Source: Arabidopsis thaliana (Eukaryota; Streptophyta; Magnoliopsida; Brassicales; Brassicaceae). From it: a DNA stretch of 64,000 nt. Where the stretch lies: positions 8,681,001-8,745,000 of the forward strand of contig NC_003075.7 of the NCBI RefSeq assembly GCF_000001735.4, in the 5' to 3' direction. This document shows, in pieces, positions 28,942 to 59,770 of this stretch. The number at the start of each line of letters is the position of its first letter. The stretch's first letter is position 1. The notes below the pieces were generated by a model. It was not told the DNA's origin, did not search any database, and saw only the letters and a list, made by a program, of their open reading frames with translations. A program made the translations under genes and the position numbers.

Positions 28942-30106
28942 TCACATCACCAGTGACGGATCATACTCAAAAGTTTCTCCAGATTTTACAAATCTCCCTT
29001 TGACCCGTTTTCTCGTATCAGCTCTGGCTTTGCGTGATGCATATCTTATTTGCTTCCCAAACCTAGAAGAAATTGGTACCACAAATATCAATGAGATTAT
29101 GTTTTAAAAGCATGATAATGACTCTGATTATGTGTCTCAAAAACTTACATGCGCTTTGATTTCTTTTGTTTGTATCTCTTTTTAGCCTCATCCCTTAATT
29201 TTGGATTAAAACTAACTTCAACATTCGATTCCCATGGCGAATCTCCTATGAGAAACCCTGGTGAAATTCCGCAATCTTGGTAATCAGTCGCATTGCTTTC
29301 TCCTGTGAGGTTAGACATCGAAAGTGACATGTTCGGTACAACGTTCCCGGATAAAGTAGGAAGCAGTAATGAAGGAAGGCCAATGTTATTCTCTTCCTTA
29401 AAAGAATCCTCGTACTCGTAACATTTGGTATTGTCAAGTGATGAACATCCGATTATATCATTGCTTGCGTTGAAATTCAACGGCGCATCATCTAAGTTTA
29501 TCCCTTCGCATAGATCCAAACCAGAACATTCCTGCATATAGAACGGAATATAAATGAAAAACATTCTTCTTTATCATAAATGAAACATTTTGATATATTA
29601 CTTAAACAACACGTCACCTCTTCTATCACTTTTGGAAGATTAGATTCCATAGGAAAGAAAGAAGAATAGTCTTTAAGGTTCTGAGTTTGTGTAACCACGG
29701 AAGTTGATGAACCATTCCAATCGTCTAATTCCTGGAGCAGGGTATCAGAAAATGGAGAGACCAAACTTGTGACAGAAGGTTCTAAAGTTGAAGACCAGAT
29801 CTTGCCGAAATCTGATGGAGAAGGACAATCAGAGTAAGGGTTCAGACTCTGAAGTCTGTGTCCTAAACCAGTGCAGTTACTAGCGGTCCACTGACATCCT
29901 TGGCAAAGAGAAACATTTTCGTTCATACAGTGTACTGCCGTGGGTTGTAAGGAACATTTCTCGCAGAGTAGAGATCGCGTGTGTCTTTGAGACAGAGGAT
30001 TCGCTGAGTGTACATTAACGTCACAGTTTAAACAAAGTTTAGCCGAATCAGATTTGCAGTAGATTAATGCTTTTTCGGTTCCACAAAAGTCACATCGAGC
30101 CTCCAT
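28942..30106 (-). CDS. COL11: CONSTANS-like transcription factor with two B-boxes and CCT domain
   Basis: Three exons on -: 30106-29618, 29531-29149 and 29062-28942; 993 nt, 330 aa. Two tandem B-box zinc fingers occupy about residues 5-42 (CDFCG...CLNCD...H..H) and 48-83 (CEKC...CQGC...H). An acidic, Ser-rich middle follows, then a CCT domain at about 276-318 ([12 protein letters not shown] across the exon 2/3 junction, then [24 protein letters not shown]). This is the group with BBX7-10. It is a nuclear DNA-binding/cofactor protein of the light and flowering pathways. An upstream in-frame ATG at 30130 would add eight residues, but the second ATG begins directly at the family start. Equivalent to BBX9. 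Confidence 0.9.
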
Positions 30107-31719
30107 ACTTCTTCGAAGACAAAACTCCAAAGAAATAACGATTTCTCAATCCCAATCGCTACACACACCTAAAATCCTATAGCATAGAAGGATCGTGAGA
30201 CAAAAACAGAACATTCAGAGATCAAACAAAATTACGATTCATTATAGGTTCATGTATCTTTTTAATGTGTGACTGTGACTGTGACTAATACATGGTTGTG
30301 TTTGAATGTTAGAGAAACACTCACAAACTAAGAAAATGTGGATTCTCGAGACCGAATCAGTACTAAAATCACAATGTCTAGAAACTCATAACCAGTTAAT
30401 TACAGAGTTTTTTCTAAACAAGAGTATAACAATAATCGTGTAAAATTGTTTATGTTTCAGGGTTCCAGAGATTAGAAGCTTTACAAGGGTGTGTGAGAGT
30501 CCAGTGAGAAGGAGATGAGAAAGAACAGAGAAGAAAAGGTTTTGCTCTGTTTTTATCCTGTGTGGGGTCCACCTTGTTAAGCGGGTTTGCCACGCGGGGT
30601 ATCTTTTGTCACGTGTGGTTTTATTGTTCCTTAGATTTTGTTGATGTCATAATGTGGTTGACCATACAATTCGGAGTTTTTGTTTGATTCTTTAGGTACT
30701 TTCTGTGGCTCGCAAGAATTTCGAGAATTGTTAATAAAAAAACGTGTAAATGTCATTAATTTTGAACACGTTTTTCTTGTTATTCAAAACATCCGAGTAA
30801 TAAGACTAGTTCGAAGCAATTTATTCCGAGTGTTGGTTTAATGGATCTAGGAGTTTGCAGCATACTAGTCCGGTTTCATTAACCTGTGGTTATGGATAGT
30901 TATTGTATCTATTTCTCACTAATTTTACTAAGTGTGTTTTCACAACTTAAAATATGAGATGTTAGAAGCACTTAAATGATTGAAATTCTAGTGAGCGATC
31001 ATGTTTTAAGAGAGAAAACTTTGTGACAACGATTGATATTCGTTTACGATTTTTTACCAGCCTCAGTAAAAAGGCTAAATGTACTATTTTTGAAACATCT
31101 CCCAATGCATTCCATGCCAAAAAAGGCTAAATGTACTTGTAAACAATTCAACAGACAGTAACTGCTGGCATTAGCTGAAAAGGTCGCTCATGGCATGACC
31201 AGTCTGGTTGTCATTGTTTGTTTGCCAAAAGATTTCATTAGATGTCCAAAAAGCAGCTCATTCGACCAAACAATTGTTTCCTGATAAGTCAATTGTTTTG
31301 TTAATCAATTCTATAGGAACGCTAAATCCATTATTCGTCCAAAAATCAGCTCATAGTTTTCAATTGTTTTGTTAACCACTTATTTTGCAAAAGTAGTGAA
31401 GAAAACATAACATTTAAACACACCAATTGTTTTCATAAAGCCCTTCCACCAACTGAAAATCAAAGAATAACTAGCTAATCTCTTCCGGTATTAAAAAAGA
31501 GGAAAAACAAAACCAATTGATATAATGTGCGAGGCATTTCCAGGATCAAAAGGCATGGAAAAAAGCAAAAAGATCAGGATATACCACAACCAATATAGCG
31601 TCACAAGCCATTATACCTGAAGGAACTGTTTTTATCCTTCAGAATTGGTAATGGACGCCAATACAAAAACAAAAAACACTAAAACTCTTTCTTCAATAGG
31701 GCAAAATTTTTGATAAAAA
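30107..31719. other. Region between COL11 and the snoRNA cluster
   Basis: Holds the COL11 leader and promoter (with a CACGTG at about 30610) and probably the 3' part of the snoRNA precursor transcript. CAATTGTTTTGTTAA-type blocks recur near 31260-31380. No further C/D-box unit or reading frame was recognised. Confidence 0.45.
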
Positions 31720-31813
31720 ATGCTCAGTGGAAGGAGAAGTCGTTTTAAAGGAGAGCTCACGGTAAACCCACTGCTCTTCTCACACTCTTCGTGCTTTCAT
31801 CTCATCATTGCAT
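31720..31813 (-). ncRNA. C/D-box snoRNA, predicted guide for 18S rRNA 3' region
   Basis: On -, C box ATGATGA (31808-31802) and D box CTGA (31727-31724), closed by a 4-bp terminal stem ATGC/GCAT. The sequence one base upstream of the D box, complement of 31729-31743, is complementary over 15 nt to GGAAGGAGAAGTCGT near the 3' end of 18S rRNA (recalled). By the D+5 rule the second A of GGAA would be 2'-O-methylated. It is the last recognised unit of the cluster. A clear D' box was not identified. Confidence 0.8.
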
Positions 31814-31877
31814 CATCATCATCAAACCCATAACAGTAATCCAACAAAACAAAACAAAAAACATTGAAAGAACAAAT

Positions 31878-31966
31878 AAGCTTCAGTGTGTGTAACAAAT
31901 TCAGTTCATTGATTCAAAAACCTCACTGAAATCCGCTAAGATAATTGTTTTTATCATCATCAGCTT
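31878..31966 (-). ncRNA. C/D-box snoRNA, duplicate copy A, predicted 25S guide
   Basis: On -, C box ATGATGA (31960-31954), D box CTGA (31886-31883) and a 5-bp terminal stem AAGCT/AGCTT. The D-guide pairs over 11 nt with GTGTGTAACAA of 25S rRNA (recalled), predicting methylation of the second U in GUGU. An internal CTTAGCGGA pairs with the adjacent rRNA block TCCGCTAAG, suggesting a D' guide. It is a tandem copy of 32055-32144. Confidence 0.82.
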
Positions 31967-32054
31967 TATAACCCAAAACAAGTACATACAAACATCAATC
32001 AAACCTATTAACAATAATCCAACTAAACAAAAGCCAAACATTAAAAAAAAAAAA

Positions 32055-32144
32055 AAGCCTCAGTGTGTGTAACAAATTCAGATCATTGATTGAAAAACCT
32101 CACTGAAATCCGCTAAGATAATTGTTTTCTATCATCATAAGCTT
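32055..32144 (-). ncRNA. C/D-box snoRNA, duplicate copy B, predicted 25S guide
   Basis: On -, C box ATGATGA (32138-32132), D box CTGA (32063-32060), terminal stem AAGC/GCTT and an internal C'-like ATGATCT. Both guides (TTGTTACACAC before D, CTTAGCGGA internal) are identical to copy A, while the loops between them have drifted. Conserved guides with drifting spacers indicate selection on the RNA. Confidence 0.82.
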
Positions 32145-32240
32145 ATAAGTGGAAAAACATCAACCAACAAAAAAAAACAATAACAGAGAAATTTGTCTTC
32201 AAACCAATCAAAAGATAAGATTTTGGGTGAAAGGGGAATT

Positions 32241-32336
32241 AATACTCAGACAGCCAAGGGTTAATCTTCAACTTCTGGGAGAAGAATCCCAGATCTGAAA
32301 CTCTAGTCCACAATACTCTTGTATCATCACCATATT
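32241..32336 (-). ncRNA. C/D-box snoRNA, predicted double guide for 25S rRNA
   Basis: On -, C box GTGATGA (32330-32324), D box CTGA (32249-32246) and a 4-bp stem AATA/TATT. The D-guide CCCTTGGCTGT pairs over 11 nt with ACAGCCAAGGG of 25S rRNA (recalled), predicting methylation of the first C after ACAG. An internal GGACTAGAGT followed by CAGA (degenerate D') pairs over 10 nt with ACTCTAGTCC, a nearby 25S segment. It is the first unit after the promoter. Confidence 0.82.
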
Positions 32337-32520
32337 CAACCCCTTCCACATCCCATAAAACTAAGACATCACAAATCTCTTTCACAAAAACCTTAAATAT
32401 CACCAATTTCAACATATATACACAAACGAAAATAGTCACAGACCTAACCCTAAAATCACCTAACATATCATTCAGACATGAAAAGAAAGAGAGTTCCTAT
32501 GATTTGCATTAGACGAAACC

Positions 32521-32617
32521 TTATAAATACACAGACACAGCAGACAATTAGGGTTTACTTCGGTCGGCGGCTACCATATCTATTTTAGGTTCTCGGCCCA
32601 ATTATACTAAATGGGCC
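32521..32617 (-). promoter_or_regulatory. Promoter of the snoRNA polycistron
   Basis: In the direction of minus transcription there are two site II elements (GGCCCA at 32612-32617 on -, TGGGCC at 32595-32600 on -), a telo box AAACCCTAA (32556-32548) and a TATA box TATTTATAA (32529-32521). Site II plus telo box plus TATA is the known promoter layout of Arabidopsis snoRNA and ribosomal-protein genes (recalled). The site II pair may also serve the plus-strand UGT gene. Confidence 0.7.
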
Positions 32618-32718
32618 AGCTTTCGTGACCCAACAAACAACTTACATTTATTTTACTTTATTAACACATTCACTTTACAAACCCAATCAACGAAAAGTCC
32701 AAAAACGTAAAAACAGAA

Positions 32719-33064
32719 ATGAAGAAGATTGAGCTCGTGTTCATACCTTCGCCGGGAATCGGCCATCTCCGGCCAACCGTGAAGCTAGCAAAGCAACTCA
32801 TCGGAAGCGAAGAACATTTTTTCAATCACCGTAATCATCATCCCTTCTAGAAACGACGCCGGTGATGCAACCGCCTATATCGCATCCCTCGTTGCAGAGT
32901 CTCAAGATCGCCTCCGCTACGAACCCATCTCCGTCGAAAAACAACCACCAACCGCAAATCTTGAGCCGTCTCAAGTCTACATCGAGAAACAAAAACCACA
33001 AGTGAGAGACACCGTCTCCAGAATCATCAATCCAACAAGAAAACTCGCCGGATTCGTGGTGGAC
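32719..33064 (+). pseudogene. 5' part of UGT71B-like gene, frameshifted
   Basis: The family start (ATG 32719, [20 protein letters not shown], with the catalytic His in GIGH) is present, but one extra base near 32811-32825, relative to the intact UGT at 38182, throws the frame about 35 codons in and gives a stop shortly after. From about 32827 the correct frame resumes and runs open into the remainder of the gene. Confidence 0.8.
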
Positions 33065-34144
33065 ATGTTCTGTTCTTCAATGATCGATATAGCTAACGAA
33101 TTTGGAGTTCCTTGTTATATGATCTACACATCAAACGCTACGTTTTTGGGAATCACACTTCACGTTCAAGAAATGTACGACGACAAAAAGTATGACGTCA
33201 GCGATTTGGATGAGTCAGTCAACGAATTGGAGTTTCCTTGTTTGACTCGTCCTTATCCAGTGAAGTGCCTTCCTCATATCCTTAGTTCAAAAGATTGGTT
33301 ACCTTTTTTTGCAGCTCAAGGTAGGTCTTTCCGGAAGATGAAAGGTATTTTGGTAAATACAGTTGCTGAGCTTGAGCCTCACGCTTTGAAGATGTTTAAC
33401 AATGTTGATCTTCCTCAAGCTTATCCTGTTGGACCAGTGTTGCATCTTGATAACGGCGATGACGACGATGAAAAGAGATTGGAGGTTTTGCGGTGGCTTG
33501 ATGATCAACCGCCTAAATCTGTTTTGTTTCTCTGTTTTGGAAGTATGGGAGGTTTCACTGAGGAACAAACTAGAGAGGTAGCTGTGGCGTTAAACCGAAG
33601 TGGTCACCGGTTTCTTTGGTCTCTCCGTCGTGCATCGCCGAATATAATGATGGAACGTCCCGGAGATTATAAGAATCTTGAGGAGGTTTTACCGGACGGG
33701 TTCTTGGAACGGACTTTGGATAGAGGGAAAGTGATTGGATGGGCTCCACAAGTGGCGGTGTTAGAGAAGCCGGCGATAGGAGGGTTTGTTACTCATTGTG
33801 GGTGGAACTCTATGTTAGAGAGCTTGTGGTTTGGTGTTCCGATGGTGACGTGGCCGCTTTACGCGGAGCAGAAGGTTAACGCGTTTGAGATGGTGGAGGA
33901 GCTGGGATTGGCGGTGGAGATACGTAAGTGCATTAGTGGAGATTTGTTGTTGATCGGAGAGATGGAGATAGTGACGGCGGAGGATATAGAGAGAGCTATA
34001 AGGTGTGTGATGGAGCAGGATAGTGATGTAAGGAGTCGAGTGAAGGAGATGGCGGAGAAGTGTCACGTGGCGTTGATGGACGGTGGATCTTCCAAGACGG
34101 CTTTGCAAAAGTTTATTCAAGACGTGATAGAGAATGTTGCTTAA
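33065..34144 (+). CDS. UGT71B-like glycosyltransferase, N-terminally truncated frame
   Basis: From the first in-frame ATG after the frameshift (33065) the frame encodes 359 aa: the end of the N-terminal acceptor domain ([14 protein letters not shown]) and a complete C-terminal UDP-sugar domain with the PSPG box from [10 protein letters not shown] through HCGWNS to YAEQ. Because the segment with the catalytic His lies upstream in another frame, the product should be inactive unless the frameshift is absent in other accessions. Position fits At4g15260, annotated as I recall at 359 aa. Neighbours are two more UGT71B copies, so this is a decaying tandem member. Confidence 0.8.
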
Positions 34145-35802: not shown

Positions 35803-36796
35803 TCAGACAACATTCTCTGTCACGTCTTGAATAAACTTTTGCAAAGCCACCTGCGAGGATCCACCGTCCATCGACGCCACGTGACACTTCTCAGCCATCT
35901 CCTTCACTCTATTCCTAACCTCACTATCATTCTCCATCACACACCTGACCGCTCTCTCTATATCCACCGTCGTGACTATCTCCATCCCTCCGACCAACAT
36001 ATCTCCTCTAAAGAACTTCCGTATCTGAACCGCCAATCCCAACTCCTCCACCATCGCAAAGGCGCTTATCTTCTGCTCTGCGTAAAGCGGCCACGTCACC
36101 ACTGTTAAACATTTTCAAAGCATGAGGTTCAAGCTCAGCAACTGTATTTACCAATATACCTTTCATCTTTCGAAAACATCTAGCTTGAGCTAGAAAGAAA
36201 GCTAACCAATCCTTGGAAGTGAAGAAATCAGGAAGACATTTCACAGGGTAAGGACGAGTCAAAAATGGAAACTCCAACTCGTTGACCGAGTCTTCCAACT
36301 CGCTTACGTCATACTTCTTCTCGTCGAACATTCGTTGAATATGAAGTGTGATTCCCAAACACGTAGCGTTTGATGTGTATACCATATAACACGGAACTCC
36401 AAATTCGTTAACTACATCGATCATCGATGAACAGAACATGTCCACCACGAATCCGGCTACTCGCGGCGAGTCAACTCCTGTTGAATGGAAGATTCTCGCG
36501 ACAACATCTCTAACTTGAGGCTTTTGTTTCTCGATGTAGACTTGAGTTGGCTCTTGATAGTCGGTTGGTTGATTTGCGACGGAGATGGCTTCGTAGTTGA
36601 GACGATCTTGAGATGCGGTCGTGAGAGATGCTATATAGGTGGTTTCAACGTCGTCGTCGCTAATGGAAGGGTAAGGGATGATGATTACGGTGATCCAAAG
36701 GCGGTCATCGCTGCGGACGAGTCGCTTTGCTAACTCAACGGTTGACCTGAGATGACCTATTCCAGGCGATGGTATGAACACAAGCTGAATTTTCAT
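35803..36796 (-). pseudogene. UGT71B-like pseudogene with internal deletion
   Basis: Minus-strand copy. The 5' part (36796 to about 36103) reads as a normal UGT71 N-terminus: [18 protein letters not shown] with catalytic His, [15 protein letters not shown], up to LKMFN. The sequence then jumps directly to [12 protein letters not shown] because about 440 bp are missing; in the next frame the C-terminal tail (VTWPLYAEQ to the stop at 35803) is recognisable. Most of the PSPG donor-binding box including HCGWNS is gone. Compared with the intact copy at 38182, the deletion endpoints coincide with two ATGGTGACG repeats there. Corresponds to At4g15270 (recalled). Confidence 0.88.
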
Positions 36797-38181: not shown

Positions 38182-39618
38182 ATGAAGATTGAGCTTGTGT
38201 TCATACCTTTGCCGGGGATTGGTCATCTCAGGCCAACCGTGAAGCTAGCGAAGCAACTCATAGGCAGCGAAAACCGTCTTTCGATCACCATAATCATCAT
38301 CCCTTCAAGATTTGACGCCGGTGATGCATCCGCCTGTATCGCATCTCTCACCACGTTGTCTCAAGATGATCGCCTCCATTACGAATCCATATCCGTCGCA
38401 AAACAACCACCAACCTCCGACCCGGATCCTGTTCCGGCTCAAGTGTACATAGAGAAACAAAAGACGAAAGTGAGAGATGCAGTCGCGGCGAGAATCGTCG
38501 ATCCAACAAGAAAGCTCGCGGGATTCGTGGTGGACATGTTCTGTTCCTCGATGATCGATGTAGCTAACGAGTTTGGAGTTCCGTGTTATATGGTATACAC
38601 ATCGAACGCTACGTTTTTAGGAACCATGCTTCACGTTCAACAAATGTACGATCAAAAGAAGTATGACGTCAGCGAGTTAGAAAACTCGGTCACCGAGTTG
38701 GAGTTTCCGTCTCTGACTCGTCCTTATCCAGTGAAGTGTCTTCCTCATATCCTCACTTCAAAGGAGTGGTTACCTCTCTCTCTAGCTCAAGCTAGGTGTT
38801 TCCGGAAGATGAAGGGTATTTTGGTAAATACAGTTGCTGAGCTTGAACCTCACGCTTTGAAAATGTTCAATATTAATGGTGACGATCTTCCTCAAGTTTA
38901 TCCTGTTGGACCAGTGTTGCATCTCGAAAACGGCAATGACGATGATGAGAAGCAATCGGAAATTTTGCGGTGGCTCGACGAGCAACCGTCTAAATCTGTT
39001 GTGTTTCTCTGCTTTGGGAGCTTGGGAGGTTTCACTGAAGAACAAACAAGAGAAACCGCTGTGGCCCTAGATAGAAGCGGTCAGCGGTTTCTTTGGTGTC
39101 TTCGTCACGCATCGCCAAATATAAAAACAGATCGTCCCAGAGATTACACGAATCTTGAGGAGGTTTTACCGGAGGGGTTCTTGGAACGGACTTTGGATAG
39201 AGGGAAAGTGATTGGATGGGCACCACAAGTGGCGGTACTAGAGAAGCCGGCGATAGGAGGGTTTGTCACTCACTGCGGTTGGAACTCTATTTTAGAGAGC
39301 TTGTGGTTCGGTGTTCCAATGGTGACGTGGCCGCTATACGCGGAACAGAAGGTTAACGCGTTTGAGATGGTTGAGGAGCTGGGTTTGGCGGTGGAGATAC
39401 GGAAGTACTTAAAAGGAGATTTGTTCGCCGGAGAGATGGAGACGGTTACCGCGGAGGATATAGAGAGAGCCATTAGGCGTGTGATGGAGCAAGACAGTGA
39501 CGTTAGGAACAACGTGAAAGAGATGGCGGAGAAGTGCCACTTCGCGTTAATGGACGGTGGATCTTCGAAGGCGGCTTTGGAAAAGTTTATTCAAGACGTG
39601 ATAGAGAATATGGATTAA
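38182..39618 (+). CDS. UGT71B5: UDP-glycosyltransferase, intact UGT71B member
   Basis: Single-exon 478-aa cytosolic family-1 glycosyltransferase transferring glucose from UDP-glucose to small lipophilic acceptors. The catalytic His15 is in PGIGHLRP. The N-terminal acceptor domain includes [15 protein letters not shown]. The PSPG donor-binding box spans residues 346-389, from WAPQ through HCGWNS to YAEQ with the terminal Gln. Close UGT71B relatives (B6-B8) glucosylate abscisic acid (recalled), so a hormone or stress-metabolite acceptor is plausible but not shown here. It is the only fully intact UGT in this cluster. Start 38182 was preferred over 38086 because it matches the family N-terminus and follows the TATA box. 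Confidence 0.93.
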
Positions 39619-59379: not shown

Positions 59380-59770
59380 CAAACTATGGAGCACTCTGTT
59401 CAAAGGATTGGTTACTTTTTTTTTGCAGCTCAAGCTAGGTCTTTCCGGAAAATGTTGGATATTTTGGTAAATACAGTTGTTGAACTTGAGCCTCACGCTT
59501 TGAAGATGTTCAATAATGATGTCGATCAGAAGATGTTAGATCTACAATATAATGTAATGCACAAAAATTTTCAAAGAGATTGTAGCTAAGTTGGTTAATC
59601 TTGTGTCATTGACACCCCATAACCCAAGTTCAAACCTACCTCATGTAACTTTTTACACGGAGCAGAAAGTTATCGCGTTGGAGATGGTGCTCTTAGGCGT
59701 GTGAAATAGAGCAAGACAGTGACATCAGGAACAAACGTTAATGGACGGTGGATCTTCGAAGGTGGTCCAA
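59380..59770 (+). pseudogene. UGT71B-like gene fragment
   Basis: Three separated pieces of a UGT71B gene in order: SKDW-like to LKMFNNDVDQ (about 59395-59530), AEQKV.ALEMV (about 59655-59690) and RRV..EQDSDIRN plus MDGGSSK (about 59693-59765). Everything between, including the PSPG core, is lost or replaced by a tRNA-like segment. Start and stop are missing. It sits on the 3' side of CSLB6 just as UGT71B5 sits on the 3' side of CSLB5. Confidence 0.8.
59583..59645 (+). repeat. tRNA-like / SINE-like segment
   Basis: TAGCTAAGTTGG matches the pol III A box, and AGTTCAAACCT about 35 nt later is B-box-like. Acceptor-stem pairing is not evident, so this is a tRNA-derived SINE remnant rather than a tRNA gene. 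Confidence 0.4.

Follow-up and report, generated by a model that had tools for sequence, protein, structure and literature searches.

The locus described here raises the question whether four short units on the minus strand of Arabidopsis thaliana chromosome 4 belong to a small nucleolar RNA (snoRNA) gene, and of what kind. It lies in a 64-kb stretch of DNA (C4:8681001-8745000; below, the window), in which a first-pass annotation had described a hidden cluster of four box C/D snoRNAs beside a UDP-glycosyltransferase (UGT) gene. When the entire window was scanned with Rfam, five matches exceeded the gathering threshold; they form a single run on the minus strand (Table 1), and each has an E-value of 1.1e-19 or lower. 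Four of them were the units already described, which turned out to be members of curated C/D families, while the fifth, the H/ACA gene snoR80, had been missed. The matches to curated families, the plant-type promoter motifs upstream, and the repetition of the gene order at two other loci bear out the snoRNA reading, and it is almost certain that the locus is a polycistronic snoRNA gene with C/D and H/ACA members, five in all, of known families. The window copies matched the full Rfam models of snoZ157, snoR11, snoZ152, and snoR80 with scores far above gathering; snoZ152 lacked a stretch in the middle of its model, RF00350, and otherwise no feature was found that distinguished the copies from their families.

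The C/D units were also recovered by a motif scan of both strands of the window, which required an RTGATGA box, a CTGA box 45-95 nt downstream, and a terminal stem in which four or more Watson-Crick pairs follow one another without interruption inside flanks of 6 nt. The scan returned exactly four candidates, and these were the four C/D units. The C box was ATGATGA in three units and GTGATGA in one, while the D box was CTGA and the terminal stem was present in all four, in agreement with the boxes and stems annotated earlier. The distance from the start of the C box to the start of the D box was 75 and 74 nt in the two snoR11 copies, which agrees with the 74-78 nt proposed before, but it was 81 nt in both snoZ157 and snoZ152. 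The spacing had been given as 64-96 nt, and the gaps between the Rfam ends of successive units were 93, 88, and 63 nt. In 300 dinucleotide shuffles of the window the mean number of candidates was 0.22 and the maximum was 2; four candidates were never reached (0/300), as expected from the claim that their co-occurrence by chance was very unlikely. Each of the four units has C and D boxes near the ends, a terminal stem, and a covariance model score above gathering, as in the box C/D class.

The H/ACA member, snoR80, carries an ACA box 3 nt from its 3' end, and its predicted fold was better than those of shuffled sequences (z -2.49), with an equally good fold in 3 of 200 shuffles. By analogy with its class, snoR80 would guide a pseudouridylation. 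A sixth snoRNA was sought in the leader and the spacers by an Rfam scan of positions 31300-32750 with E-values up to 1. Among the matches listed, three were below gathering besides the five genes, namely TtnuCD15 within snoZ157, sR1 within snoZ152, and MIR5298 spanning a spacer and part of snoZ152, and all three were dismissed as chance matches or echoes. No tRNA genes were found in the 64 kb.

Table 1. Members of the snoRNA cluster and motifs upstream of it (positions in the window)
Feature	Position	Strand	Description
snoZ157	32238-32339	-	C/D; Rfam RF00333, 96.9 bits (gathering 55)
snoR11 copy a	32055-32144	-	C/D; Rfam RF00349, 117.6 bits (gathering 50)
snoR11 copy b	31878-31966	-	C/D; Rfam RF00349, 115.6 bits (gathering 50)
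snoZ152	31719-31814	-	C/D; Rfam RF00350, 103.2 bits (gathering 50)
snoR80	31523-31649	-	H/ACA; Rfam RF01224, 136 bits (gathering 45)
TATA-like box	32521-32529	-	within TATTTATAA; upstream of snoZ157
Telo-box	32548-32556	-	AAACCCTAA, sole exact copy in the window; upstream of snoZ157
Site II element	32595-32600	-	TGGGCC; upstream of snoZ157
Site II element	32612-32617	+	TGGGCC; upstream of snoZ157

The arrangement of the region upstream of snoZ157 is that of a polycistronic snoRNA gene, with a telo-box and Site II elements preceding several snoRNAs on the same strand. In plants, according to PMC4660826, polycistronic snoRNAs and genes for ribosomal proteins share a promoter that combines a telo-box with Site II, whatever their order and orientation, and the snoRNA genes of this type that it presents resemble the window locus in having a telo-box, Site II, and a TATA box upstream of the snoRNA run. 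Each motif alone occurs in the window at the frequency expected by chance (one exact telo-box AAACCCTAA against 1.12 expected, and 22 copies of TGGGCY against 21.08), and therefore the promoter motifs carry weight only through their position and grouping.

The predicted targets of the C/D guides lie in ribosomal RNA (rRNA). We take these guides to be complementary to 25S and 18S rRNA. Searches of the genome with rRNA patterns (two exact, one tolerating two mismatches at most) and with a query of 60 nt gave no match. Two stretches of the assembly at the expected positions of the rDNA consisted mostly of N (10000/10000 and 9261/9901 letters); an Rfam scan of the second, 9901-nt stretch yielded no match other than two to 5S rRNA, and neither stretch gave a hit in a word search. 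When the base paired with the fifth guide position was compared with published methylation sites, it was the methylated base for seven of seven guides, at five distinct sites. The sites that fit are those given for SnoR37, SnoR22, and SnoR23 in Wu et al. 2021, and we infer from the guide sequences that Rfam snoZ157, snoR11, and snoZ152 correspond to these three RNAs. Naming by Rfam label alone was rejected, as R10 and R12 did not fit the sites listed for SnoR10 and SnoR12 in that study. SnoR22 is among six snoRNAs that are described as using both guides, at sites 11-18 nt apart.

By analogy with known genes of this type, we infer that the locus would give a single transcript, that this would be processed, and that its products would direct methylation. 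RNA polymerase II would synthesize one precursor, snoZ157-snoR11a-snoR11b-snoZ152-snoR80, from the putative telo-box/Site II/TATA promoter, and the precursor would be cut and trimmed to the mature snoRNAs. Through base pairing with pre-rRNA, the C/D members would then guide 2'-O-methylation by fibrillarin to the nucleotide that faces position 5 of the guide; the predicted targets are 25S C2366 and U2422 for snoZ157, 25S A1263 and U1278 for snoR11, and 18S A1758 for snoZ152. Because the families are in Rfam and published sites fit the guides, the locus is of an already known kind, one more copy, in which one guide is duplicated in tandem and an H/ACA gene comes last, and the earlier description of the cluster as hidden does not hold. 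A related arrangement in rice, cluster 20 with the order snoR22a-snoR23-snoR22b, differs from the window in its order, and section 6 of PMC5122169 lists neither snoR37 nor an H/ACA RNA as part of it. As a discovery the locus has little weight; it shows that plant C/D snoRNAs can be recognized from raw sequence by box, stem, and guide.

The same gene order, with one R11 gene instead of the two in the window, was found at C4:8459706-8460346 (+) and at C3:7682357-7682944 (+). The C3 cluster has diverged from the window copy (67.6% for snoZ157 and 69.8% for snoZ152), and comparison by eye showed that the conserved blocks include both snoZ157 guides, the D guide of snoZ152, and both snoR11 guides, with one gap upstream of the core of the snoR11 D guide. 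Within 500 nt upstream, both clusters have two Site II elements; the C4 copy at 8.46 Mb has a single telo-box there, in reverse orientation, and the C3 copy has three, two of them forward and one reverse. The two snoR11 copies of the window are 94.4% identical, and the R11 gene of the other C4 cluster is closer to copy b (96.7%) than to copy a (92.2%). Copy a carries bases that set it apart from the three other R11 genes, and by eye it has a few bases in common with the C3 copy that are absent in copy b and the C4 copy. The spacers after copies a and b are alike (52 of 61 aligned bases), a value to be read against unrelated T-rich spacer pairs, which also reach, for example, 53 of 70. These sequence comparisons fit two histories: R11 was duplicated within the window cluster, or the pair is older and the C4 cluster lost one of its members by unequal crossing-over; the loss is hinted at because the C4 copy is close to b while a shares bases with the C3 copy. 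The C4 cluster at 8.46 Mb is followed, 184 nt downstream of its snoR80 and on the same strand, by an Rfam match to MIR4221 (154.2 bits, C4:8460531-8460662), which lies outside the stretch common to this cluster and the window. Dicistrons of a snoRNA and a miRNA are reported for miR775 and miR779 in PMC4660826, and by analogy MIR4221 and the C4 cluster could form a further one; miR4221 does not appear in the main text of PMC4660826.

Several observations weigh against the preferred reading. Folding of two of the four C/D units gave structures not more stable than those of shuffled sequences (z -0.18 and 0.31), and the exact H box ANANNA, which occurs in snoR80 only at positions 15, 18, and 122 of 127, was not found in its hinge. 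The agreement at guide position 5 is not an independent test, since the SnoR names were selected from the table for their fit, and the D' boxes were chosen with the answer known from among several candidates (four in snoZ157 and five in snoR11a). The equivalence of the Rfam and SnoR names was not found in the literature searched, and in Wu et al. the names SnoR10 and SnoR12 stand for RNAs that have other targets. The window locus itself is not named in that literature, including the accessible part of PMC4660826 on plant telo-box/Site II snoRNA genes. The stability of these two folds, like the T-rich spacers, would be compatible with four motif matches that arose by chance or from low-complexity sequence, yet this explanation has practically no probability left, as it is already refuted by the family matches and their E-values, and it would account neither for the shuffling result nor for the gene order at two further loci.

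Three clusters exist, and any single one may be dispensable. The window copy could be a silent duplicate, with the work done by its paralogs at C4:8.46 Mb or C3:7.68 Mb, and its promoter motifs are indeed no better kept than at those two loci; but all four C/D units retain their boxes and terminal stems intact and the promoter motifs are present, and we consider a silent copy quite improbable. The closeness of the cluster to the UGT gene, whose start codon at position 32719 is only ~380 bp away, could instead mean that the snoRNAs belong to an intron or untranslated region of that gene. This is hardly credible, because the UGT gene, a plus-strand gene arranged head-to-head with the cluster, runs away from it, with the promoter motifs between the two. 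A polycistronic gene of its own remains the preferred reading. An extension of it, in which the tandem R11 genes raise the guide dose and the cluster and the UGT gene have a common two-way promoter, appears unlikely; if true, a ribosome-biogenesis promoter would also drive a glycosyltransferase gene.

The neighboring genes were analyzed by a Pfam search of four open frames (E-value 0.001). The frame at 33002-34141 (+) matched UDPGT, and the frame at 29498-30127 (-) matched the B-box zinc finger, while the frames at 29145-29564 (-) and 36008-36796 (-) had no match at this threshold. The UGT sequence at 32719-33409 (+) matched a neighboring UGT-like frame in two pieces, 32725-32823 and 32825-33409. 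These pieces are in different frames, and therefore the reading frame appears to be shifted near the start of the gene in this assembly. Additional UGT-like stretches were observed in the minus-strand frame 36796-36095, which served as the query, at 38182-38883 on the plus strand, and in a short segment at 59419-59517; the similarity of these sequences suggests a local UGT family in the window.
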